DNA from: Sulfuricurvum sp.
GTDB taxonomy: Bacteria; Campylobacterota; Campylobacteria; Campylobacterales; Sulfurimonadaceae
Length of the DNA: 64,000 bases
NCBI RefSeq assembly: GCF_028681615.1
Contig: NZ_JAQUHV010000001.1
Coordinates: forward strand, 496,001-560,000
Reading direction: 5' to 3'
Shown here: one piece after another, positions 50,648 through 63,894 of the stretch
Numbering within the stretch: position 1 is the stretch's first letter
Layout: the number at the start of each line of letters is the position of its first letter
The notes under the pieces: model-generated
The model's database searches: none
What the model was told of the DNA's origin: nothing
Seen by the model: only the letters and a program-made list of their open reading frames with translations
Program-made: the position numbers and the translations under genes

Positions 50648-52435
50648 ATGCTGATTGATTTAAAACCGTTAAAAGTTTTGTACGTTGAAGACGACGCAAT
50701 GACGCGTGAAGAGATTCTTTTTTCGCTTACCACTTTCATCGAAACTATCTATACGGCTGAAAACGGTGAAGTAGGGAAAGAACTTTTTTATACTCATCTC
50801 CCAGACCTGATCATTACCGATATCCAAATGCCTGTACTCGACGGGCTTAGCATGATCAGTGCGATCAAACAAACCCATCCGAAAATCCCGGTTATCATTA
50901 TGACCGCGTTTAACGACACCTCCTATTTGTTTAAAGCGATTGAATTAGGAATTACCCAGTACGTCACAAAACCGGTCAATCTCAAGAGCCTACTCTCCAA
51001 AATCGATGAAATCGCCGAACAGATTACCCTGAAGAAAAAAGCACTTTGGCAGGAAAAACTCCTAAGTCAGTACAAAACCGCAATTGATCAGACACTGGCG
51101 GTGAGTAAAACGGATGCGCTTGGAATCATCACCTATGTCAATGAAAAGTTTTGTACTTTGAGCGGGTATACCTACGATGAGATCATCGGAAACTCCCATT
51201 CCCTATTCCGTTCACTCCATGAAAAAAATGAAAAATTTAATTCCCTTTGGGAAACAATCACCAAAGGGGGGCAATGGCACGGCGTGATCGAAAACCGGGC
51301 GAAAAACGGAGATCATTTTATCCTCGATCAAACGATTTTTCCACTCTACGATGCGGATAACAACGTCATCGAATACATCTCTATCGGCGATGATGTGACC
51401 GAGCTCTTCCATTATCGGGATTTTTTGGAGGTTGAACTTCATCGAAACCGTAAAAGTTTGGCTGAAACGCTCCATTTTCTCGAGCAGTACCAAGAAGCGC
51501 TCCAAGTCGGAACAGCCGTATGCCACATGTCCCTCGACGGTAACATTATCGATGCAAACGAAACCTTCTGCAATTTGCTCGGATACACCAAAGATTCTAT
51601 TATAGAAGTGAAAGAGTGCTCTATTTGTCAAAGCGAAGGATTTGATATTAGCTCCATCCGCGAAACGCTGGCAAAAGAAAATATGTATCGAAAAGAGTTT
51701 CACTACCGCACCCGAGAAGGAAGTATTAAAACATTTGATTCCGTATTCGTCCCTATCAGCGATAGCAGCGGCACTATCGTTGAGATTCTCAGTATGCACC
51801 ATAACATTACCGATCTGCTTGAACTCAATCAAGAGGTTATCAAGACTCAGCATGAAGTGCTCACGGTTCTCGGTGAAGCTGCCGAAAACAAATCGGCGGA
51901 AACCGGCAGCCATGTCCAGCGCGTTGCTGCATACAGCCGTTTTTTAGCAGAAAAATATGGACTGAACGACGAAGAGACCCGTTTAATAGAGATGGTGGCA
52001 CCGATGCATGATATCGGAAAAATCGCCATACCGGACGCGATTTTGCACAAACCGGGAAAACTGAGCGAAGAGGAGATGGAAATCATGAAAACCCACTCTC
52101 AGAAAGGGTATCAAATGCTTTCACACTCCGATCGACCGCTGATGAAACACGCGGCACTCGTCGCGCTTCAGCATCACGAAAAATATGACGGAAGCGGCTA
52201 TCCGGCCGGTCTTTGTGGAGAGGATATCCATATTGCGGGACGGATTATTGCGATTGCCGATGTTTTTGATTCTCTGGGGAGTAAACGCTCATACAAAGAG
52301 GCATGGTCACAAGAACAGATTGTTGAGTACTTCCGCGAACAAAGAGGATGCCATTTCGATCCCGTTCTGGTCGATATTCTCCTCGAAAATCTCGATGAAA
52401 TCAATCTTATCAACACCCGCTTTAAGGATTCATAA
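50648..52435 (+). CDS. Response regulator with two PAS domains and an HD-GYP phosphodiesterase
   Basis: A 595-residue protein: receiver domain (8-125; phospho-acceptor D58, K108), PAS (about 145-265), PAS (about 280-400), and HD-GYP (about 405-580; HDIGKIAIPDAILHKPGKL, HHEKYDGSGYP). The catalytic HD and GYP motifs are intact, so it should hydrolyse c-di-GMP under control of a kinase. The receiver is a close paralogue of that in the GGDEF protein at 60126. It is the first gene of the signalling cluster, with GGAG before the ATG. The stop overlaps the next ATG (TAATG). Confidence 0.92.
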   Translation: MLIDLKPLKVLYVEDDAMTREEILFSLTTFIETIYTAENGEVGKELFYTHLPDLIITDIQMPVLDGLSMISAIKQTHPKIPVIIMTAFNDTSYLFKAIELGITQYVTKPVNLKSLLSKIDEIAEQITLKKKALWQEKLLSQYKTAIDQTLAVSKTDALGIITYVNEKFCTLSGYTYDEIIGNSHSLFRSLHEKNEKFNSLWETITKGGQWHGVIENRAKNGDHFILDQTIFPLYDADNNVIEYISIGDDVTELFHYRDFLEVELHRNRKSLAETLHFLEQYQEALQVGTAVCHMSLDGNIIDANETFCNLLGYTKDSIIEVKECSICQSEGFDISSIRETLAKENMYRKEFHYRTREGSIKTFDSVFVPISDSSGTIVEILSMHHNITDLLELNQEVIKTQHEVLTVLGEAAENKSAETGSHVQRVAAYSRFLAEKYGLNDEETRLIEMVAPMHDIGKIAIPDAILHKPGKLSEEEMEIMKTHSQKGYQMLSHSDRPLMKHAALVALQHHEKYDGSGYPAGLCGEDIHIAGRIIAIADVFDSLGSKRSYKEAWSQEQIVEYFREQRGCHFDPVLVDILLENLDEINLINTRFKDS

Positions 52436-53304
52436 TGCAAAAATGGGTGATATCCTTACTCGCAATGATTTTAGCAAGCTCTCTGTACGCTGAAAAAATC
52501 ACCGCTGGACTCTATGATCCGGTACTCAGTTCGCGTGTGTCGAAAAAAGATTACGTTATAGGAATGGACATTTTTCTTAAAGAGATCGTTCGTAACGAAG
52601 GAATTGACGCCGAAACCATCTCTTACGATGATCCCGTTAAATTGTCCCATGATTTTGAGAGCGGAAAGCTCAATATGATTGTTTGTGATCCGCTGACAAT
52701 CGTTGAAAACGTCCCCTTAAATTATCTCCAAAGCGGTATTATGGGGTATAAATACAATCAAACCGATTCCATGACCCTTCTCGTCCTCGTCAATGCCGAT
52801 GACACCCGTCCGCTCTCCGAGCAGCTGCACGGGAGTATCGCTATGGACGGGGATACGAGCGCAGAGCTCTTTCTCAAAACTCTCATGCTCCAAAACGGTA
52901 TAACGCAAACCCCCAATCTCATTTCCACTAAAAATCCCCAGCAGAGCATACTGAAACTCTTTTTTCATAAAGCCGATCTTACCCTTATCGATCGCGGTTC
53001 GTTTCTCACCGCCGTCGAACTTAATCCGCAAATCAAAACAAAAACAAAAATCCTCGAATCAATCCCCCTCACTCTCGGCTCGGTGAGCTATATGCGTAAA
53101 GGGATGTCCAAAGAGCTTCAACAAAAAATCTTCGCCCTAGGCAAACGGATGAACACTACCCCTCGGGGAAAACAGCTCCTCGCCCTCTTTCACGGAAACT
53201 ATATGGATGAATGCGATCCCAAAGACCTCGCAAGCGTCTATGCTCTCAAAAAAGAGTATGAAACGCTGCACAATCTAAAATCCCTGCACCGGAATAACCG
53301 ATGA
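52435..53304 (+). CDS. PhnD-like periplasmic binding protein, paralogue 1
   Basis: A 289-residue exported protein (signal peptide about 1-19) of the PhnD/phosphonate-binding superfamily: SYDDPVKLSHDFESGKLNMI, NPQQSILKLFFHKADLTLID, and MNTTPRGKQLLALFHG near the end. It is closely related to the next gene and more distantly to 55703-56578. No transporter partner genes are nearby. The TAATG overlap with the HD-GYP regulator ties it to signalling. The ligand may be a small oxyanion or phosphonate-like compound, but this is not testable here. Confidence 0.83.
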   Translation: MQKWVISLLAMILASSLYAEKITAGLYDPVLSSRVSKKDYVIGMDIFLKEIVRNEGIDAETISYDDPVKLSHDFESGKLNMIVCDPLTIVENVPLNYLQSGIMGYKYNQTDSMTLLVLVNADDTRPLSEQLHGSIAMDGDTSAELFLKTLMLQNGITQTPNLISTKNPQQSILKLFFHKADLTLIDRGSFLTAVELNPQIKTKTKILESIPLTLGSVSYMRKGMSKELQQKIFALGKRMNTTPRGKQLLALFHGNYMDECDPKDLASVYALKKEYETLHNLKSLHRNNR

Positions 53305-54176
53305 AACCGCTTTTTATGATTATTGCTTTGAGCATTTTTTCCCTTTCGCTGCATGCTGAACAGGTTTTGGTAGGGCTCGATGAAGTGTCACTTACCACCG
53401 GTATATCGAGAAAAGACTATACGCTGGGGATGACATTACTCCTGAACGAATTTCTAAAAAAAGAAAATATCGAAACCGTAGTAACGTCCTATGATGATCC
53501 AGCCCGCTTGATGGACGATTTTAAGAGTGGCAAGATCAACATGATCGCTTCCAACGCCATTAATGTTATCAAATACCTCCCCATCTCATCGCTCAAGAGC
53601 GGAATAACGGGCTATAAATACAACAAATCCGACAACCAAACCCTTTTGCTGCTTACACGTTCCGATAATATGCGTCCTCTGGATGAGCTCATCAAAGGGG
53701 TCATTGCGACCGATGGAGACAAGGTAGCCGACCTGTATTTTCGTACCCTGATGCTCCAAAATAAAGCAGCGGAATCCCCCAATTACCTCGTACTGAAAAA
53801 CAATCAGCAAAGCATTTTAAAACTCTATTTCAAACAAGCTGATATCGCACTGGTCGATCGGGGATCTTTTCTCGTCGCCGCTGAACTCAACCCCAGCCTC
53901 AATCGGGAACTGAAAATTGTAAAAGACATCCCCCTCACTCTCGGAACCGTCTGCTATACCCGAAAAGACATGTCGCCGGAGCTGCATTCAAAAGTCATCG
54001 CAATGGCCAAAAAAATCAATACTACTCCACGAGGGAAACAGCTGATGCAAATGTTTCACGCGGACAAGATGGACGAATCCACCCTTAACGAACTCGGCAG
54101 TGTATCGGCACTGATGAGCCAATACAACGAACTCACCCAACACAAACCAAACCCAACACTAGGAAAAAAACGATGA
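53301..54176 (+). CDS. PhnD-like periplasmic binding protein, paralogue 2
   Basis: A 291-residue tandem paralogue of the preceding gene, sharing the SRKDYTLGM, SYDDPARLMDDFKSGKINMI, QSILKLYFKQADIALVDRGSFL, IPLTLGTVCYTRKDMS and NTTPRGKQLMQMFH blocks. It has a signal peptide of about 19 residues. Coupled by ATGA to both neighbours. The duplication suggests two ligands, or high- and low-affinity versions of one sensor input. Confidence 0.83.
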   Translation: MKPLFMIIALSIFSLSLHAEQVLVGLDEVSLTTGISRKDYTLGMTLLLNEFLKKENIETVVTSYDDPARLMDDFKSGKINMIASNAINVIKYLPISSLKSGITGYKYNKSDNQTLLLLTRSDNMRPLDELIKGVIATDGDKVADLYFRTLMLQNKAAESPNYLVLKNNQQSILKLYFKQADIALVDRGSFLVAAELNPSLNRELKIVKDIPLTLGTVCYTRKDMSPELHSKVIAMAKKINTTPRGKQLMQMFHADKMDESTLNELGSVSALMSQYNELTQHKPNPTLGKKR

Positions 54177-55648
54177 GAAAAGCCCTCTTCTCTCTTGCAG
54201 TATTGAGTGCCGGTCTAATGGCACAAAATCTGAGCCTCGATGATGCAATCCGTATCGCACTGGAGAACAATCGCAATCTCAAGATTTCTCAAACGGCGTT
54301 GAAGATCGCCGATGCCCAGTACCATCAGGCGCTCAGTGCACGATATCCTCAGCTCACCGCTTCAGCAACCGCAATGCGGATGGATGAGGATCCGTCGTTT
54401 TTAATGAAAGGAACGTTCACTCTGCCTCAAGAGTTCACCAACGGACTAGCACTATCAGGGGCTGTGACTCAAGATGAAATTGCATCTATGATGAGCGGGC
54501 AACCAAGTAATCATGCTAACTTAGCAACCACATTGGGTTTGGTTCAAAGCGGTTCTATTCCTTCTCAATCCATTCCTCTTAACATGGATGTTAAACAAAT
54601 GGACCGTGACCTTGGGGTCCTGCGTCTGGATATGATGTATCCGCTCTATAGCGGTGGGAAAATCGATGCAGTTATCAAACAGGCTGCACTCAACAAAAGC
54701 ATCCAGTCTGAAGAAGCCCGTCGATCTGAGTCCGAAGTAATCTATGATGTCAAACGATACTATTATGGAGCTATGCTCGCCCAACATCTCAGCGCTGAGA
54801 CCCATGACACCCTCGAGCGGATGAACATGGTCAAAGATCTCACAGAAACCTTCTATCAAGGCGGATCGCTCAAAGTCAAAAAAACCGACTACCTCCGTAC
54901 TCTCACCACCGTCAACATGATCGCTTCGATGGACGAAGAGATGAAATCCAATGCCGAACTTGCCAAATCGGCTCTGATCAACGCCACCGGATTGCCATGG
55001 AACAGTACGGTCGAACTGACGCAGAACGAGTTCCCTGCACCTCAGCTCAGCGGCGATCTAAAAACTCTTGTTGATGATGCGTATAAGTTTAATCCAACCT
55101 ATGCACAGCTCAAGCTCGCCATCGATGTGCAGTCGGCTAAAGTGGATGAAGCTTCCAGTGCCTATCTTCCGAGCATCGCCCTCACCGCCAATGCCCAAAA
55201 ACTGCTCAACAGTTACGATGCAGGGGTGGTGAACGATACGAACAAAAACTCATGGACGATCGGAGTCGGATTACAATGGAATCTGTTTGAAGGATTCCGT
55301 ACCGATTATGCCGTCCAGGAAGCCAAACTGAATAAGCTCAACTTCCAACACAAAGAAGTCCTCCTCCAAGAAGGGTTGGCTTTACAGGTCAAATACGCCT
55401 TTATCAAACTGGGACAAAGCGAGCGCCAAAATGTTGCCCTCACCAATGCTAAAACGAGTGCCACAGAGAATGCCGACCTCAACACCCGTGCCTATCAAGA
55501 GGACATGGTAGAGACCAAAGACGTCATTGAAGCGCAAATAATGGAGACCTTCGCCAAAGCAGCCTACTGGAAAAACCTCCACGATTTTGCCGCATCCAAA
55601 GCACAGCTCGATTATATCATCGCATCTCAAAGCACTCAGGCTAAATGA
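54173..55648 (+). CDS. TolC-family outer membrane protein
   Basis: A 491-residue outer membrane factor: signal peptide (about 1-17), then two TolC repeats (LSLDDAIRIALENNRNLKIS near 21-40; a second repeat with FNPTYAQLKLAIDVQSAKVDEA near 305-327). It normally pairs with an inner-membrane pump and adaptor, but neither lies nearby. Instead it sits between binding proteins and histidine kinases, coupled by ATGA. It may serve a remote pump or act with the cluster in some export-linked sensing (inference). Confidence 0.88.
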   Translation: MRKALFSLAVLSAGLMAQNLSLDDAIRIALENNRNLKISQTALKIADAQYHQALSARYPQLTASATAMRMDEDPSFLMKGTFTLPQEFTNGLALSGAVTQDEIASMMSGQPSNHANLATTLGLVQSGSIPSQSIPLNMDVKQMDRDLGVLRLDMMYPLYSGGKIDAVIKQAALNKSIQSEEARRSESEVIYDVKRYYYGAMLAQHLSAETHDTLERMNMVKDLTETFYQGGSLKVKKTDYLRTLTTVNMIASMDEEMKSNAELAKSALINATGLPWNSTVELTQNEFPAPQLSGDLKTLVDDAYKFNPTYAQLKLAIDVQSAKVDEASSAYLPSIALTANAQKLLNSYDAGVVNDTNKNSWTIGVGLQWNLFEGFRTDYAVQEAKLNKLNFQHKEVLLQEGLALQVKYAFIKLGQSERQNVALTNAKTSATENADLNTRAYQEDMVETKDVIEAQIMETFAKAAYWKNLHDFAASKAQLDYIIASQSTQAK

Positions 55649-55702
55649 CGATGATAAATGTCGCCTTTAGCAAAATATCCTAAGCGCCTGGAAGAGGAAA
55701 GA

Positions 55703-56578
55703 ATGAAACTTTTTTGGATTCTCCTTTTTTTTCTGACAACCATACAAGCCGAAGAGAAAACACTCATGCGTGCGGGATATGTACTGGAAGGGACATCCGC
55801 AGCAGTATCACGTGACATGAAAGCAGGATATGAATTCATCTCCAAACGCTTTTCAAAACATTACAACGTTGAAACGGACGTCATTTTTTTAAAATCGCAT
55901 GACGATGCCATTGCTTCATTCAAACAAGGAGAACTGGATTATATTGCTATGCCGCTTGCGACATTCGCCCCCTATTACCAAGAGTTCATCCCCTATGAAG
56001 GACTCGTTTTCCTCAGCGGAAACGGAAACGATATCCTTCAGCCCTATATAACGCTGGTACGCAAAGAAGATCCTTCGTCGTTAAGTTCGTATGCAGGTAA
56101 ACGGGCAGCCCATGATGAGAATAATATCAATACCGATATTTACATGGACATGCTCACACTGAATCTTGCCGACAAGCACAGCCGTGAAATGTTTAACCTC
56201 GTTTCGACTCCCACACCGCAGAGGGCTGTTTTAATGCTCTTTTTTAATCAGGCAGATATTGCCTTTGTCCCTGTCACGAGCTGGGAAACAGTGAAAACGA
56301 TGAATCCCACACTGGAACAAAAGCTCAAAATAATCGACAAAAGTCCCAGTGTTTTCGGATACGGAATCGAAATATACCGCAAAAATCTCCCCCGAAACGT
56401 ACTAGAGGATATGATTAGAATGAACAACGATCTCACACGTTCTGAAGATGGAAAACAGCTGATGCGGATCATGAAGGCAAAAAAACGTTCTCTAATCGAA
56501 CCCAATCAAATTCCCTCGTACATCGACTATTATCTCCAATACGAGACCCTCTTAAAACGACATGAAAAGAAAAAATAA
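55703..56578 (+). CDS. PhnD-like periplasmic binding protein, paralogue 3
   Basis: A 291-residue protein with signal peptide (MKLFWILLFFLTTIQA). It is a PhnD-like fold more distant from paralogues 1 and 2 but sharing FKQGELDYIAMPLATF, TPQRAVLMLFFNQADIAFVP and SEDGKQLMRIMK blocks. The ATG at 55703 is preferred over one at 55658: it has AGAGGA upstream, starts a proper signal peptide and gives the same length as its paralogues. It precedes two histidine kinase genes. Confidence 0.82.
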   Translation: MKLFWILLFFLTTIQAEEKTLMRAGYVLEGTSAAVSRDMKAGYEFISKRFSKHYNVETDVIFLKSHDDAIASFKQGELDYIAMPLATFAPYYQEFIPYEGLVFLSGNGNDILQPYITLVRKEDPSSLSSYAGKRAAHDENNINTDIYMDMLTLNLADKHSREMFNLVSTPTPQRAVLMLFFNQADIAFVPVTSWETVKTMNPTLEQKLKIIDKSPSVFGYGIEIYRKNLPRNVLEDMIRMNNDLTRSEDGKQLMRIMKAKKRSLIEPNQIPSYIDYYLQYETLLKRHEKKK

Positions 56579-56708
56579 TGCATCTTGATTCTGCTATGAC
56601 CAACGCTGGCAAATATCTTTTTCAAACCAAAACTTCTCAGTACAATGCCAATTTGCGCTATTATAAAGAATATAAAACACTTTTAAGACCATATAAGGGA
56701 AAACATCC

Positions 56709-58295
56709 ATGATCTCTTTTTTCCGCCAAAAACTCCTCTATCAGGTCTATGCGATCATCATCATTCTCATGGCATTGATCATGCTGCTGATCGGTTATCT
56801 CGTCTTGCAGGAGCAAGAGCGGACAATTCTGAGCGTCATGCAGACACAGGCACAGACCCTCGCCAAATCGATCGAACTCGTTAGTGCCGATGCGATGGTC
56901 ACTGACGATCAGAGCTTTTTGGTCGAGCACAACCTAAATGTTCTCGCCCACAGCCCAACGATCCGTTTTATCATTATCTCCAAAAACGGACGAGATGCTC
57001 TCTTAACCCGTCAAGGAGAGTGGCGCCTTATCCAAAAACTCCCTGCATCCATCCAAAAACTCGAAAGTGACAATGAGCAGGAACAGATTCTAAACGACCC
57101 GTATGCCAAAAAAACTGAAAAAATCTATTATTACACCTATCCGCTCAATTTCGACGGTATTTCATGGGGATGGATCCATCTAGGCTTTTCACTGGAGAGT
57201 CTCAATGAAGCCTATAATGCTATCTACAGTGAAATTATTATGATTTTCTTCATCGTTTTCATCATTCTGAGTATCGCGATTTATTTTCTCTCCCGCTATA
57301 TTGTACAGCCTATCATCGCACTAAGCCATGCGAGTAAAAAAATGGCGCAAGGAGATATGAAAATCACGCTTGACACTACACGAAAAGATGAAATCGGAGA
57401 GCTCACGCGAAATTTCAGTGCGATGGCCAAAAGTCTCTCACAAAGTCAGCGAGAACTCAAAAACAGCAATTTTATACTAGAACAAAAAGTTGAAGAGCGT
57501 ACCCGTGAACTCGAAGAGATCAACCATACTCTGGATGAACGTGTCCGGACTGAAATAGCTCATCGCCGAGAGCAAGAACAGATACTGATTCAGCAGTCTC
57601 GCTTTGCAGCTATGGGAGAGATGATCGGGAATATCGCTCACCAATGGCGGCAACCCCTAAATGCCCTTTCTCTATTGCTTCAAAATATCGAAAATGCTTA
57701 TGATTCCGGCAGGCTTGATCATGCATTCATCCAGCGTGTCATTGAAAAAGGGACGCTGCTCACGACGAACATGTCAACCACGATCGATGATTTCAGAAAC
57801 TTCTTTAAACCCAATCGGAGTAAAGAGCTCTTTGATGTATCGGCACAGCTGAATACGGTATTACTCATGATGAGCGCCTCCTTTGTAGATAACCGTATCG
57901 AAACAATCGTTTCTCTGGAACCTGATTTGGAAGTAACTGGCTTTGCCAATGAATTTTCCCAGGTTCTTCTCAACATCCTCAATAATGCAAAAGAAGCATT
58001 GATTGAAACGCAAAAAGATCATCGTCTGATCCAAATTCGTGGATATCGACAAGCCAGTGCGCTTTGCCTAGAAATTTCTGATAATGCCGGAGGGATAAAC
58101 GAGCAGGTTATCGACAAGATTTTCGATCCCTATTTTACAACCAAAGACGAGGGTAAAGGGACAGGAATCGGACTTTATATGTCAAAAGTAATCGTTGAAA
58201 CCAATATGCACGGAAAACTAAGTGTCCGTAATGACTCTGACGGCGCTGTTTTCATGATTTGCCTTCCTACCTCATATGAGCAGGAGACGAAGTGA
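56709..58295 (+). CDS. Membrane histidine kinase with HAMP domain
   Basis: A 528-residue sensor kinase: TM1 (11-33), a periplasmic sensor of about 140 residues, TM2 (177-195), HAMP (197-250), a coiled coil (250-295), a HisKA-type dimerisation domain with phospho-accepting H311 in MIGNIAHQWRQPLN, and HATPase (LNILNNAKEAL, DNAGGI, GKGTGIGLYMSK). No receiver is fused. A possible promoter lies in the 130-bp upstream gap. It is coupled by GTGA to a sister kinase with nearly the same catalytic core. Likely phosphorylates one or both response regulators of the cluster. Confidence 0.92.
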   Translation: MISFFRQKLLYQVYAIIIILMALIMLLIGYLVLQEQERTILSVMQTQAQTLAKSIELVSADAMVTDDQSFLVEHNLNVLAHSPTIRFIIISKNGRDALLTRQGEWRLIQKLPASIQKLESDNEQEQILNDPYAKKTEKIYYYTYPLNFDGISWGWIHLGFSLESLNEAYNAIYSEIIMIFFIVFIILSIAIYFLSRYIVQPIIALSHASKKMAQGDMKITLDTTRKDEIGELTRNFSAMAKSLSQSQRELKNSNFILEQKVEERTRELEEINHTLDERVRTEIAHRREQEQILIQQSRFAAMGEMIGNIAHQWRQPLNALSLLLQNIENAYDSGRLDHAFIQRVIEKGTLLTTNMSTTIDDFRNFFKPNRSKELFDVSAQLNTVLLMMSASFVDNRIETIVSLEPDLEVTGFANEFSQVLLNILNNAKEALIETQKDHRLIQIRGYRQASALCLEISDNAGGINEQVIDKIFDPYFTTKDEGKGTGIGLYMSKVIVETNMHGKLSVRNDSDGAVFMICLPTSYEQETK

Positions 58296-60139
58296 GACTT
58301 CAAACCCAATTTTTACTTCTGTTTCTCATTCTATTTGCGATTTTGACTGCCCGTTTGTTTCAAAATGCGACGAATCAAAAAGAAAACATTGATGAAATCC
58401 AAAAAATCCGAATACATGAGTTTTCACAAACCTTTCACGAAATCATCGATTTAAAGGTATCAAAACCAAAAGTTTTTGCCTATGACTACAGCTATTGGGA
58501 TGAAATCGTTGATTTTACAACAAGTCATGATCTGGAATGGGCCCGTATCAATCTCGATGAAGGGCTAAAAACCTTTGAAAGCGACTATGTCTACGTATAC
58601 AACAGCAAAGGAGCCATGATTTATGAACAATACGATCATAAAAGCTATGATTCCATTGCCCGTTTAATCGATCCGAAAACCTTTAATTTCGATAAACCGC
58701 AGATTAAAAACTATTTTATCGTATCACATGGAACACCGATACAAATCTTTATTGCCCCGATTCAGCACAGTGACGACATGCATCGCACCGGCAAGCCCTT
58801 CGGATATCTGGTAATCGGAAAAGCATGGACGCCTAGTTTCGTAAAAGATTTTCAAAAAATCACCAAACAAACCGTTACCCTCGAAACACTGGACCGACTC
58901 CGCCGTAATCACTTTGATGTCATCTATCCGCTCAAAGGGGAGGACGGAAAAACCGTAGACGCACTAACCGTCAATTTAACGACAACCGCCAGTGATACAC
59001 TGCATAAGATGGCACAAACCAATATGCTTTCCATTATCGTCATCGGTATACTGGGAATGGGGCTTTCAGGATGGTTTGTCTACCGGCGTATTGTCATTCC
59101 GTTACGACAAATATCCAAAGCAATGCGAAGCGGGAATAACCATCCGATTCAATCCTTGCTGCACAAACAAGACGAATTCGGACAAATTGCCCACTTAATC
59201 AATAGATTCTTCGAACAAAAAAGTCTCTTGGAAGCCCAGTTAGTACGGACCAATCAGGCAGAACTTGAACAACGGAAACTGGAGGCGGAACTTCGCCTCA
59301 GCAACCAGATATTGGAACACAAAGTTGAAGAGCGGACCAAAGAGCTCGAAGCGGCAAATCATACGCTGGATGAGCGGGTTAAAACTGAAATCGCCCGTCG
59401 GCATGAGCAAGAACAGCTTTTAATCCAACAAGCGCGTTTTGTGGCAATGGGTGAAATGATCGGAAACATCGCCCACCAATGGCGGCAACCGCTCAATGCC
59501 CTCTCGTTGCTTCTGCAAAACATCATTTTCGCATATGAAACCAATCGGCTCGACGACGAACTCATGGAACGGGTTAACAGCAAAGGTAATCTACTGATCA
59601 ACACAATGTCGACAACCATCGATGATTTTAGGAATTTTTTCCAACCGAATCGCAATAAAGAGATGTTCAATATCGCCGCACAATTGGATAAAACGTTGGA
59701 AATACTGCAAGGTACACTTGAAAACAATCACATTGTGTTGGAAAAAGAGGTTGGAGCTGATCTCACTATGTCCGGATTTCCGAATGAGTTTTCACAAGTC
59801 ATCATCAACATCACTAACAATGCCAAAGATGCTTTAAATGAGCGTGCCGTTGATGAAAAAATCATCCGTATTCAAGGATACGACACTGCTGATGAGATCA
59901 TCATCCGTATCAGTGATAACGGCGGAGGGATTTCTAAATCCATTATAGATAAAATTTTCGATCCCTATTTTACGACGAAAAAAGAGGGGAAAGGGACGGG
60001 GATAGGGCTTTATATGTCCAAAGTAATCGTTGAATCCAGTATGAACGGGAAACTTGTCGCATCCAACGATGCTCATGGAGCGGTATTTACCCTTTACTTC
60101 CCGAAATCAATCCAAGGGGATACCGATGCTTCCCTCTAA
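58292..60139 (+). CDS. Histidine kinase with CHASE4-like sensor
   Basis: A 615-residue sister of the preceding kinase: TM1 (7-23), a CHASE4-like periplasmic sensor (about 40-240, with FAYDYSYWDEIVDF), TM2 (246-264), HAMP-like linker, coiled coil, HisKA with H395 in MIGNIAHQWRQPLN, and HATPase (DNGGGISKSII, GKGTGIGLYMSK). GTG start at 58292 with AGGAG 5 nt upstream, overlapping the previous stop. The kinase cores match closely but the sensors differ, so two inputs may converge on shared regulators. Confidence 0.92.
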   Translation: MRLQTQFLLLFLILFAILTARLFQNATNQKENIDEIQKIRIHEFSQTFHEIIDLKVSKPKVFAYDYSYWDEIVDFTTSHDLEWARINLDEGLKTFESDYVYVYNSKGAMIYEQYDHKSYDSIARLIDPKTFNFDKPQIKNYFIVSHGTPIQIFIAPIQHSDDMHRTGKPFGYLVIGKAWTPSFVKDFQKITKQTVTLETLDRLRRNHFDVIYPLKGEDGKTVDALTVNLTTTASDTLHKMAQTNMLSIIVIGILGMGLSGWFVYRRIVIPLRQISKAMRSGNNHPIQSLLHKQDEFGQIAHLINRFFEQKSLLEAQLVRTNQAELEQRKLEAELRLSNQILEHKVEERTKELEAANHTLDERVKTEIARRHEQEQLLIQQARFVAMGEMIGNIAHQWRQPLNALSLLLQNIIFAYETNRLDDELMERVNSKGNLLINTMSTTIDDFRNFFQPNRNKEMFNIAAQLDKTLEILQGTLENNHIVLEKEVGADLTMSGFPNEFSQVIINITNNAKDALNERAVDEKIIRIQGYDTADEIIIRISDNGGGISKSIIDKIFDPYFTTKKEGKGTGIGLYMSKVIVESSMNGKLVASNDAHGAVFTLYFPKSIQGDTDASL

Positions 60140-62348
60140 CTTTCCTGCATCATTGCGAATCCTTTATATCGAAGACGATAAAAACACCCAAGAAGAGGTC
60201 GCCTTCTTTCTCGAACCGCTCGTTAGCAATCTCTATCTGGCATCCAACGGTCAAGAGGGATTGGATCTCTATCGCTTCCATGCTCCCGATCTAATCATCA
60301 CCGACATTCAAATGCCGATAATGAACGGTTTGGAAATGATCAAAGAGATTCGGAAAAACGATTCCCGTACCCCTATTTTTATCACGACAGCCTATAATGA
60401 AACAACCTATCTTCACGATGCCATCAACAGTGGAGTCAATCGTTACATTCTAAAACCGATCAATTTCAAAAACCTTTCCGAAATTATCCGTGAGTTTTTC
60501 CCAAACAACACCAATTATCCCTACTCCATCTATATCGATCGTCACGGCACTATTGCTAACACAACCAATAATTGGTCGGAATTGACCGGATATACACTCG
60601 ATGATCTACGCAATCTTTCTTTCGAAAACTTCATTGCTCCGCAAGACCGTATGGAGTTTCACCGTTTTCTTGTAAATATGGATTCGCCTCAAGAACATCT
60701 CAAACAAAAATTCCATCTTCTCCATAAAAATCAAACTTCACTTGAAACCGTTTTGCATACGGTTCATATAAAATATTATGACGATGCCGCACCTCTCTTT
60801 CAGCTCGAATTCAAAACCCTTAATACCTATATCCATGATGAAGAACTCTTGAATAAAACCCTTGAAGCAGAGCGTTTTATCAAAAGATTGATACAGATGA
60901 ACTCCGTCATTTACAAAGAAATTGCACAAACACGAGAGAAAAATGTATTTCTTCAACACTTGACAGACATTTTCAGTAACAATGATATTTTTGAATTTGC
61001 CTTTATTACCTATGCGGATGAAAATAATCTTGTCTGGTTTTCGGAGCAAGGAGTTCATAATGCTCTGGATGCCAAATCGCTGTTCCCCATTCCGATTCCG
61101 ATGGGTGAGGTCGAATGTCCTATGGCGGAAGTACTCCAAAATCAGACGATCGTGCTGATCGAAGATCTTATCCGCTTTAGCAATTTTGCCAGTAAATCCT
61201 ATTGGATCGATAACACTATCCGGTCCATGGCGATTCTCCCTTTGTATCAAAAGTCCCGTAGCCAAAAAAGAGGCGCATTTTGTTTTATGCTCAACAAAGC
61301 ATACAAACTTGACAATGAAGTGTTCGAACTGTTTGAAAATATCACCGAAGCTTTAAACATGGGACTTCAATCGATAGACGATCAAATGGAACGCCACCGT
61401 CTCGAAAAACAACTCAGACAAGAGCGGAATTTCATCAAAGAGGTCCTTGAAACAGCGGGGAATATCATCCTTGTCTTTAATCGAGAGGGTTCGATTATCC
61501 AATTTAACAAAGCTGCGGAAAAATTTACAGGATATACCTTTGCCGAAGTCGTCGACAAACCATTTTTTTGGAAAAAATTTTTACTTTCGGAACAACAAGA
61601 TGCCGTAGAATCGATATTCTCAAACGCCTTTAAAAGCGATATTACGACACGCAATGAAAATTTCTGGATATCGAAAGGGGGAGAAAAACGGCTGTTTGAT
61701 TGGTCCAACACCGTCCTCAAAGATGAAAATGACGAAGTGCAGTATCTCGTTGCCATCGGCAACGATATCACCGAACGAAAACAGAGTGAAGAGATGATCG
61801 AACAGCTCGCCTTTTACGATCCGCTCACCCAGTTGCCCAACCGAAGACTTTTTAGCGATTATCTGAATAAATCGATTGCATCCAACAAACGCCACGAACA
61901 TTTTAACGCACTGCTGTTTTTGGATTTGGACAACTTCAAACCGCTCAACGACTTATACGGTCACGCGGTAGGGGATCTGCTCCTTATCGAAGTGGCCCGC
62001 CGTATCAAGAAATGCATACGGGAAAGTGATGTTGCCGCCCGCTTTGGAGGGGATGAATTTGTGATCGTTCTTGATAATCTGGATGAGGATAGAGCGTTAG
62101 CAACCGACTATGCCCGTATGGTAGCCGAAAAGATTCGCAGCAGCTTGGCCGAAGTCTATTTTTTATCCCCAAAAGAAGAAGAAACCGCTCCTGTTTTAAT
62201 AGAACATCACTGCACATCCAGTATCGGAATTGTCCTTTTCGGTAGCGACATTACGGATCAGAACACCCTTATCAAATATGCCGATTCGGCAATGTATCAA
62301 GCAAAAGAAGCCGGACGTAATCAAATAGTACTCTACAGTATGAAATAA
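60126..62348 (+). CDS. Response regulator with PAS, GAF-like and GGDEF domains
   Basis: A 740-residue protein: receiver (10-128; phospho-acceptor D60, conserved K in ILKPIN), PAS (about 135-250), a GAF-like region (about 285-440), PAS (about 450-570), and GGDEF (about 575-740; RFGGDEFVIV, complete active site). It should synthesise c-di-GMP when activated. The ATG at 60126 has AAGGGG 6 nt upstream and overlaps the kinase gene by 14 nt. Its receiver is paralogous to that of the HD-GYP protein at 50648, so the cluster contains opposing outputs with sister inputs. Confidence 0.92.
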   Translation: MLPSNFPASLRILYIEDDKNTQEEVAFFLEPLVSNLYLASNGQEGLDLYRFHAPDLIITDIQMPIMNGLEMIKEIRKNDSRTPIFITTAYNETTYLHDAINSGVNRYILKPINFKNLSEIIREFFPNNTNYPYSIYIDRHGTIANTTNNWSELTGYTLDDLRNLSFENFIAPQDRMEFHRFLVNMDSPQEHLKQKFHLLHKNQTSLETVLHTVHIKYYDDAAPLFQLEFKTLNTYIHDEELLNKTLEAERFIKRLIQMNSVIYKEIAQTREKNVFLQHLTDIFSNNDIFEFAFITYADENNLVWFSEQGVHNALDAKSLFPIPIPMGEVECPMAEVLQNQTIVLIEDLIRFSNFASKSYWIDNTIRSMAILPLYQKSRSQKRGAFCFMLNKAYKLDNEVFELFENITEALNMGLQSIDDQMERHRLEKQLRQERNFIKEVLETAGNIILVFNREGSIIQFNKAAEKFTGYTFAEVVDKPFFWKKFLLSEQQDAVESIFSNAFKSDITTRNENFWISKGGEKRLFDWSNTVLKDENDEVQYLVAIGNDITERKQSEEMIEQLAFYDPLTQLPNRRLFSDYLNKSIASNKRHEHFNALLFLDLDNFKPLNDLYGHAVGDLLLIEVARRIKKCIRESDVAARFGGDEFVIVLDNLDEDRALATDYARMVAEKIRSSLAEVYFLSPKEEETAPVLIEHHCTSSIGIVLFGSDITDQNTLIKYADSAMYQAKEAGRNQIVLYSMK

Positions 62349-62352
62349 CGCC

Positions 62353-63894
62353 CTAATAGCTAATGCAGTTCCTGCCGCTCGCTTTTGCCGCATACAAAGC
62401 TTTATCCGCCGCTTTTATCAACTCTTCTTTATCCAGACCTTTTTGCATGGTGGCAATCCCGACACTGACGGTTACTTTTGTATCTAAATGAAAATCAAAA
62501 TGTTCTACAATCGATCTAAAATGCTCGGCGAGCTTTACACTGTTTTCCAGATTGGTATTGAGCGCAAGAATCATAAACTCTTCACCGCCCCAGCGGACAC
62601 AAACATCGGTATCGCGCGTATGCTGATTCATAAGGGAACCTATCAGCTTGAGCACACGGTCTCCTTTATCATGGCCGTAGCTGTCATTGATTTTCTTGAA
62701 GTGATCCACATCCATAAAAAGAACCGAAAAAGGAGTTTCATACCGATTGTATTTTTGAACTTCATTGGATAATCTCTCAATCAATACCCTTCGATTATAC
62801 AATCCCGTCAAAGGGTCTGTTTGCGAGAGTGCATTGAGAAGCCCGTTTTGTCTGACGACATGCCGAATCAGGACCGCGATAATGGCAAACAGGATGAGAA
62901 GGATGACAATTACCCCTTTTTGAGTACTGATAACCCCCTCTTTTTCAACGAGGTTTTCTTTTTGTTTTTCTATCTCTTGATTTAAATGTGCCAACTCATC
63001 ATTGGCTCTGGTAATTTCTTGCTGTTTTTGTTGATGCGATTTGAGGAGAAATTTAAACACACCCTCTTTTTCCGCAATTTTTTTCTCTCCCGCACTCAGT
63101 TTTTCTTTTTGCTGATCGATACTTTTTCGTATAGCTTCCGCTTCACTCTGTTGTGAGTCAATCGTATTTTGTTGATCATTGATCGATTGGAGCTGTTGCG
63201 CAATTATCTTGTTTTGGGAATCAATCTTCGCTTGCTGCTCAATCAACCCTTTTTTTTGTGTCTCTATCGCACTGATTTTTTCACTGAGTTCCGTATTTCT
63301 CTCTTTGATTTTTTTATTCAATTCGGAGATAGTCTCTTTTTGCTCTTTGAGTTCATTTTGGGAACTTTTATACAGTTTTGCGACATCGATTTCCGTACCG
63401 CCGAGTAAAATAAGGTCAGGAGAAATCGATAAAGATCTGTTGATCAGATTCGGTTTATTGATCTCAAACGTGATCAAATTCCCACTTTGGACCAGATTGA
63501 TCATTACTTTTTGTTTATCTTTATAATCATCGCTGATAAACAATACGTCATCCGACTCATAGTCATGAAACAGTTTCTCATACAGGGCCGAACTTTCATT
63601 ATCGACATAAATCGCTTGAAGATTTTTGGGAGGTTTACCGTCATTGTAAAAAAAGACTCTGATTTTTTTATCTTCGAGCAATTTTCTCGAAGAGAGCATC
63701 AAAAACATATTTTTCAGATTCTCATTTTTCGAAACCACGAGAAGATTGTATTCACTGAATTTAGATTCATTTTGCCAAGTTGTATGTTTTAAAAAATTGT
63801 AGACATACGCGACTTTTACCTGATCGCTGTTAATCTCTTTTGCATTCAGCACACTGAGCAACAATCCTAAAACTAACCAAATAACAACTTTCAT
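62353..63894 (-). CDS. YfiR-domain diguanylate cyclase with long coiled coil
   Basis: A 513-residue protein: signal or TM helix (1-18), YfiR-type (DUF4154) domain (about 25-165; VAYVYNFLKHTTWQ), a long coiled coil (about 170-325, rich in Gln, Glu and Lys), one TM helix (about 330-350), and GGDEF (about 355-513, active-site motif GGEEF, acceptable for activity). In Pseudomonas YfiR is a separate periplasmic protein controlling a cyclase; here it is fused. AGGA lies just upstream of the ATG, 4 nt after an upstream barrel gene in the same direction. Converges on the GGDEF regulator with only 4 nt between. Confidence 0.9.
   Translation of the reverse strand: MKVVIWLVLGLLLSVLNAKEINSDQVKVAYVYNFLKHTTWQNESKFSEYNLLVVSKNENLKNMFLMLSSRKLLEDKKIRVFFYNDGKPPKNLQAIYVDNESSALYEKLFHDYESDDVLFISDDYKDKQKVMINLVQSGNLITFEINKPNLINRSLSISPDLILLGGTEIDVAKLYKSSQNELKEQKETISELNKKIKERNTELSEKISAIETQKKGLIEQQAKIDSQNKIIAQQLQSINDQQNTIDSQQSEAEAIRKSIDQQKEKLSAGEKKIAEKEGVFKFLLKSHQQKQQEITRANDELAHLNQEIEKQKENLVEKEGVISTQKGVIVILLILFAIIAVLIRHVVRQNGLLNALSQTDPLTGLYNRRVLIERLSNEVQKYNRYETPFSVLFMDVDHFKKINDSYGHDKGDRVLKLIGSLMNQHTRDTDVCVRWGGEEFMILALNTNLENSVKLAEHFRSIVEHFDFHLDTKVTVSVGIATMQKGLDKEELIKAADKALYAAKASGRNCISY

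Follow-up and report, generated by a model that had tools for sequence, protein, structure and literature searches.

Why should a TolC-family outer-membrane protein be encoded among PhnD-type binding proteins, histidine kinases, and enzymes that make and degrade c-di-GMP? TolC proteins are the exit ducts of pumps and secretion systems, and the eight-gene run that raises this question contains neither a pump nor an ABC permease, as the preliminary description of this DNA had stated. The run occupies positions 50648-62348 of the window, i.e., the whole 64,000-nucleotide stretch that was analyzed, which comes from the sulfur-oxidizing bacterium Sulfuricurvum and corresponds to C1:496001-560000 of its genome (G000). 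The present study points to an answer to which we give an even chance: a binding-protein/kinase/regulator system of the AioXSR kind has had its output switched to c-di-GMP and includes a TolC of its own as a functional component.

The gene run and its conserved core

An eight-gene run on the plus strand had been proposed, and all eight open reading frames (ORFs) are present in the ORF list, with the family of every protein borne out by Pfam search (Table 1). Most junctions had been said to overlap by a few bases, which is true of five of the seven (1, 4, 4, 4, and 14 bp). At the other two junctions, TolC and PhnD3 are 9 or 54 bp apart according to which start codon is used, and PhnD3 and HK1 are separated by a 130-bp gap. 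The start of PhnD3 is probably ATG 55703, with the signal peptide MKLFWILLFF. A scan for promoters and terminators gave no signal beyond shuffled expectation. A convergent gene on the minus strand (62353-63894) ends 5 bp from the run; its product combines a YfiR/DUF4154 periplasmic domain, a long coiled coil, and a GGDEF domain, which unites the roles of YfiR and YfiN in one protein.

Table 1. Features of the run, in gene order (window coordinates).
Feature	Position	Strand	Evidence
REC-PAS-PAS-HD-GYP response regulator, c-di-GMP phosphodiesterase (Pfam REC/PAS/PAS/HD_5)	50648..52435	+	ORF, Pfam
PhnD1, secreted type II binding protein (Phosphonate-bd)	52435..53304	+	ORF, Pfam
PhnD2, secreted binding protein (Phosphonate-bd)	53301..54176	+	ORF, Pfam
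TolC-family outer-membrane protein (OEP), separate subfamily	54173..55648	+	Pfam, profile searches, tree
PhnD3, binding protein adjoining HK1 (Phosphonate-bd)	55658..56578	+	ORF, Pfam, model
3′ remnant of a further PhnD gene (NANLRYYKEYKTLLRPYKGKHP*)	56579..56708	+	sequence read
HK1: TM - Cache/PAS-like periplasmic domain - TM - HAMP - histidine kinase (HAMP-HATPase)	56709..58295	+	Pfam, model
HK2: CHASE4 sensor and HK1-like kinase core (CHASE4-HATPase); GTG start	58292..60139	+	Pfam
REC-PAS-GGDEF response regulator, diguanylate cyclase; ATG 60126	60126..62348	+	ORF, Pfam

Relatives were gathered by searches with PhnD2, PhnD3, and TolC and with profiles of the HK1 sensor and of TolC; 30 kinase loci were annotated, and the in-depth search covered one phylum. 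Among the loci examined, the full eight-gene set was found solely in the window. The sole close relative from the single-protein scan, Sulfuricurvum sp. STB_144 (L008, genome G070), has a locus that is 91% identical and holds seven of the eight genes, PhnD3 being missing. At two other Sulfuricurvum loci (L051 and L052), neither HK2 nor the HD-GYP protein is encoded. Other genera of the same family (L053, L056, L057, and L058) show the arrangement PhnD-TolC-PhnD-HK1 with HD-GYP, EAL, or GGDEF regulators. In a second family (f7), which by inference is probably Arcobacteraceae, PhnD-HK1 often adjoins ftsH together with an HD-GYP and a GGDEF regulator. TolC of f7 occupies another fixed site, with or without a PhnD-HK1 of its own; its neighbors, identified by reading the sequences, are a TrkA-like protein, an aminotransferase, and a MurC-like ligase.

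Since synteny across Sulfuricurvum, its family, and f7 is partial, the conserved unit, as judged from gene content, is a core of TolC, PhnD, HK1, and c-di-GMP response regulators, not all eight genes. The earlier view of the eight genes as one unit is not supported: apart from this species, HK2 was found in a single close relative, and PhnD3 is missing in two Sulfuricurvum. HK1 is the conserved kinase of the module.

The signaling residues of the run are in place as read from the sequence. Both receivers keep the acidic pair, the phospho-acceptor Asp, Thr, and Lys; the phosphodiesterase retains HHEKYDGSGYP, and the cyclase retains GGDEF as well as the RESD inhibition site upstream of it. A GAF domain, which had been included in the last protein (as REC-PAS-GAF-PAS-GGDEF), was not detected in the window copy, though the cyclase counterpart at L056 has one. 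The opposing c-di-GMP outputs described earlier recur, with response regulators of opposite sign at 12 of the 30 annotated kinase loci. Three f7 loci (L067, L069, and L188) also carry a second kinase of ~855 aa and a REC-only protein of ~300 aa between the HD-GYP and GGDEF regulators.

Binding proteins and the HK1 sensor

PhnD1 and PhnD2 are 49% identical, and the PhnD proteins of the window match PF12974 weakly (35-53 bits). A profile of 44 PhnD relatives finds ArrX, PhnD, and AioX among solved structures, ArrX being the best sequence match. The predicted structure of PhnD3 (pLDDT 94) likewise has ArrX as its closest fold, followed by XAC2383, AioX, PtxB, and PhnD (TM 0.5-0.65). The oxyanion pocket of AioX and PhnD is made of a Ser-x-Ser and a His (AioX residues 161, 163, and 192) (PMC5908839). 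In the alignment columns taken from ArrX and PhnD, the Ser-x-Ser was found in 0 of the 44 homologues and the His in 0 of 44; given this absence, neither a phosphonate nor an arsenic oxyanion is predicted as the ligand. BstB, a PhnD-fold protein that binds sterols, illustrates how far the fold strays (PMC10942540). The preliminary description had left it to be seen whether the binding proteins belong with an ABC transporter encoded elsewhere. In a genome-wide search of this 99.99% complete genome, the best PhnE permease match scored 28 bits against a cut-off of 216.7. With synteny conserved in part as well, neither of the two outcomes named beforehand as going against the earlier proposal was observed. 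Phosphonate uptake was rejected on the lack of a PhnE over this cut-off together with the missing pocket residues.

That the PhnD proteins serve signaling, as proposed, gains support from gene fusions within this genome and from covariation with the HK1 sensor. Four PF12974 proteins are encoded outside the run, all fused or adjacent to signaling proteins. One is a PhnD adjoining a hybrid kinase and a REC-PAS-GGDEF protein, and three Rosetta-stone fusions occur in the genome (PhnD-PAS-GGDEF, PhnD-HD-GYP, and PhnD-PAS-GGDEF-EAL). Covariation was assessed from pairwise simple distances over 16 loci, with the nearest PhnD taken at each locus. PhnD versus the periplasmic part of HK1 gave a partial r of 0.62 given the kinase core and 0.58 given TolC, whereas, given the HK1 sensor, the values were -0.03 for PhnD versus the core and -0.04 for PhnD versus TolC. 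The HK1 sensor versus TolC, given the core, gave 0.50. By this measure, PhnD divergence appears to track the HK1 periplasmic domain, not the kinase core or TolC, and a contact between PhnD and the HK1 sensor is suggested. At the suggestive level of 16 loci and simple distances, the HK1 sensor would be central, contacting PhnD and perhaps TolC.

HK1 and HK2 had been regarded as sister kinases. This stands for their cytoplasmic cores, which are ~61% identical and both carry HQWRQPLN and complete ATP-binding boxes. It fails for their periplasmic domains, which are unrelated: HK2 has a CHASE4 domain, and HK1 is without a Pfam sensor match. The model of the HK1 periplasmic domain shows a Cache/PAS-like order of strands and helices (residues 20-190 at pLDDT 82-90); because kinase cores dominated the fold-search matches, the putative Cache/PAS-like class is assigned from topology only. 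A PhnD lies within 9 kb at 27 of the 30 HK1 loci, mostly directly adjoining, the exceptions being L135, L190, and L191. Thus, as in AioXSR-like systems, a separate secreted PhnD-fold protein is encoded beside a histidine kinase, with a response regulator in the same cluster.

The set of PhnD genes turns over among relatives: remnants precede HK1 in both the window and L008, and PhnD1 is broken in L052. In the window, the remnant is the 3′ end of another PhnD gene within the 130-bp PhnD3/HK1 gap; in L008, which is without PhnD3, the matching remnant upstream of HK1 is all that is left at that place. In genome G008, TolC is surrounded by a row of six different PhnD paralogues (L055, 4165-11130 and 11313-12224), and the HK1 relative of that genome bears an extra N-terminal multi-helix membrane domain, the gene being cut by the contig end.

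A TolC subfamily without a pump

In our tree, the TolC subfamily forms one clade (support 1.0) related to the OEPs of a bicistronic RND pump. Profile searches of a 397-genome phylum sample, with a strong HK1-sensor match taken as over 170 bits, found the TolC subfamily in 12 genomes and the HK1 sensor in those 12 and no others. The Fisher values of ~1e-22 (4e-23 for the 397-genome sample) are naive, because the genomes are phylogenetically related and shared ancestry is ignored; the value from the genus-level count, 6e-6, is more sober. Among the 104 genomes of f7, TolC occurs in 27, HK1 in 27, and both in 26, and the same 9 of 20 genera carry the two. The exceptions are G609, a 440-contig draft with TolC only, and G616, an 86% complete draft with a partial kinase. 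Furthermore, TolC and HK1 are unlinked yet both retained in at least six genomes (G502, G516, G611, G613, G614, and G579); in G579, TolC lies beside a PhnD, and the kinase lies beside a cyclase elsewhere. In G491, one and the same IS disrupts both the HK1 gene and the TolC gene (L139 and L140), which are ~1.8 Mb apart, and both copies of it encode an identical 454-aa DDE transposase. This double disruption may reflect joint loss of use, or merely an active element.

Co-inheritance with HK1 makes TolC, as far as gene content tells, one of the most consistent parts of the module, and it speaks against the earlier picture of a self-contained binding-protein/kinase module with TolC as a bystander. 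Across related bacteria, a genome nearly always has both TolC and the kinase or neither, however distant their loci, and this suggests that the sensing system has an outer-membrane component, which is uncommon. The idea of TolC as a passenger was rejected on this co-inheritance, the retention when unlinked, and the double IS disruption.

The genome encodes 13 OEP proteins. The other 12 adjoin RND, ABC, MacB, or FUSC exporters, and every full-length RND transporter has its own OEP. No adaptor or inner-membrane exporter is encoded with the subfamily TolC in the window run or in the relatives' loci examined. The protein has the OEP repeats (PF02321) and the conserved periplasmic tip segments of a TolC-type outer-membrane factor. 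Compared with pump-linked OEPs, the subfamily has an insertion of 2-3 residues at the N-terminal tip and MVETKD versus LASMSD at the C-terminal tip. The tip segments are, however, conserved in the related pump-linked OEPs too, and therefore the tips alone do not show a new partner. A subfamily-only signature of 'KKTD' plus the C-tip, suggested by comparison with the other OEPs of the genome, was weakened by this related clade and given up. Two adaptor-type genes, one on C25 and the other accompanied by an ABC-2-like exporter on contig C3, have no visible OEP, and they leave room for an unlinked exporter partner of TolC. On C25 lie an ABC gene, which is truncated by the end of the contig, and the genes for HlyD and a 2552-aa protein; the complete copy on C14 puts an OEP where C25 is cut. 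Both loci (L186 on C25 and L174 on C14 of genome G000) are type I secretion loci with giant adhesin-like proteins.

Candidate mechanisms and known systems

In the mechanism we favor, the periplasmic PhnD-type proteins would bind a small ligand, predicted to be neither phosphonate nor arsenate, and the ligand-bound protein would dock on the Cache-like periplasmic domain of HK1 and alter its autophosphorylation. HK1, here with HK2 as a second input, would phosphorylate the paralogous receivers of the HD-GYP and GGDEF regulators, and the phosphodiesterase and the cyclase would move c-di-GMP in opposite directions. Ligand binding by PhnD and phosphotransfer to both regulators are what we infer. 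TolC may stand on the input side, where it would form an outer-membrane channel or a platform on which the binding proteins or the kinase sensor dock; for this placement, we consider the scales roughly level. A more specific proposal, possible though tentative, is that an efflux-derived TolC forms the outer part of an envelope-spanning sensor, its tip docking either PhnD or the periplasmic domain of HK1; a condition at the outer membrane or outside the cell would then set c-di-GMP.

Co-inheritance with HK1 would also follow if TolC were the regulated output, with PhnD-HK1 controlling, via c-di-GMP, the export of an adhesin, polysaccharide, or signal through an exporter encoded elsewhere. The secretion genes on C25 without a visible OEP agree with such an output, as does the c-di-GMP control of large adhesins that is established for Lap-like systems in the accounts we cite (PMC6890996, PMC13090378). 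Yet no exporter travels with TolC at any locus examined, and C25 is cut inside the ABC gene, where the C14 copy leads one to expect an OEP. We regard the output role as possible but less likely than the input side. It is unlikely that a shared pump recruits TolC as a conventional outer-membrane efflux factor and that the kinase senses envelope or efflux stress. Its relationship to pump-linked OEPs fits this idea, and so do tips still conserved as expected for docking a periplasmic partner; but all full RND transporters of the genome already own an OEP, most Sulfuricurvum examined are without the TolC subfamily despite having other OEPs, and TolC is present or absent together with HK1. Phosphonate-bd, as the family is called, is a name for transport proteins, and the PhnD proteins might serve an ABC importer encoded elsewhere, their clustering here being incidental. 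With kinases as the conserved neighbors of PhnD, no PhnE over the cut-off, and the pocket residues missing from all 44 homologues, this possibility is very improbable and largely excluded.

The input-side mechanism can be set against several known systems. Among open-licence papers, we found none that combines PhnD, a histidine kinase, TolC, and c-di-GMP, and the broader TolC-signaling literature, by title and abstract, yielded only unrelated papers. AioXSR and ArrXSR are three-component systems headed by a PhnD-fold binding protein (PMC5908839). Like them, the module combines a histidine kinase and a response regulator with a free periplasmic protein of the PhnD fold, and ArrX is the best match of its PhnD family in both sequence and fold. 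In contrast, their regulators bind DNA, whereas those of the module are c-di-GMP enzymes; the module has one to six PhnD paralogues plus TolC, and its PhnD proteins are without the Ser-x-Ser and His of the oxyanion pocket. XAC2383-XAC2382, as cited in PMC10380989, pairs a PhnD-fold receptor with a diguanylate cyclase. By that account, it shares with the module a free periplasmic receptor of this fold tied to c-di-GMP synthesis, and XAC2383 is among the top three fold matches; it differs in pairing the receptor with the cyclase, where the module interposes a kinase and response regulators and adds TolC. The GGDEF, EAL, and HD-GYP proteins with PBP domains (PMC8846402) resemble the module in PBP-clan sensing, and fused versions exist in this genome, but in the module, the binding protein and the enzyme are separate and joined by a kinase. 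With the TolC factors of RND pumps, the module TolC shares the family and fold (PF02321) and a relationship to the pump-linked OEP clade; unlike them, it is without a pump, co-inherited with a sensor kinase, and altered at its tips.

Systems of a PhnD-fold binding protein, a kinase, and a regulator are thus already known; what is new is a TolC that has no pump and is co-inherited with HK1. Inheritance of a TolC subfamily alongside a sensor kinase, and not alongside a pump, would put the fold to a new use, and, if this reading of TolC is true, the module offers a tractable case for outer-membrane input to c-di-GMP.
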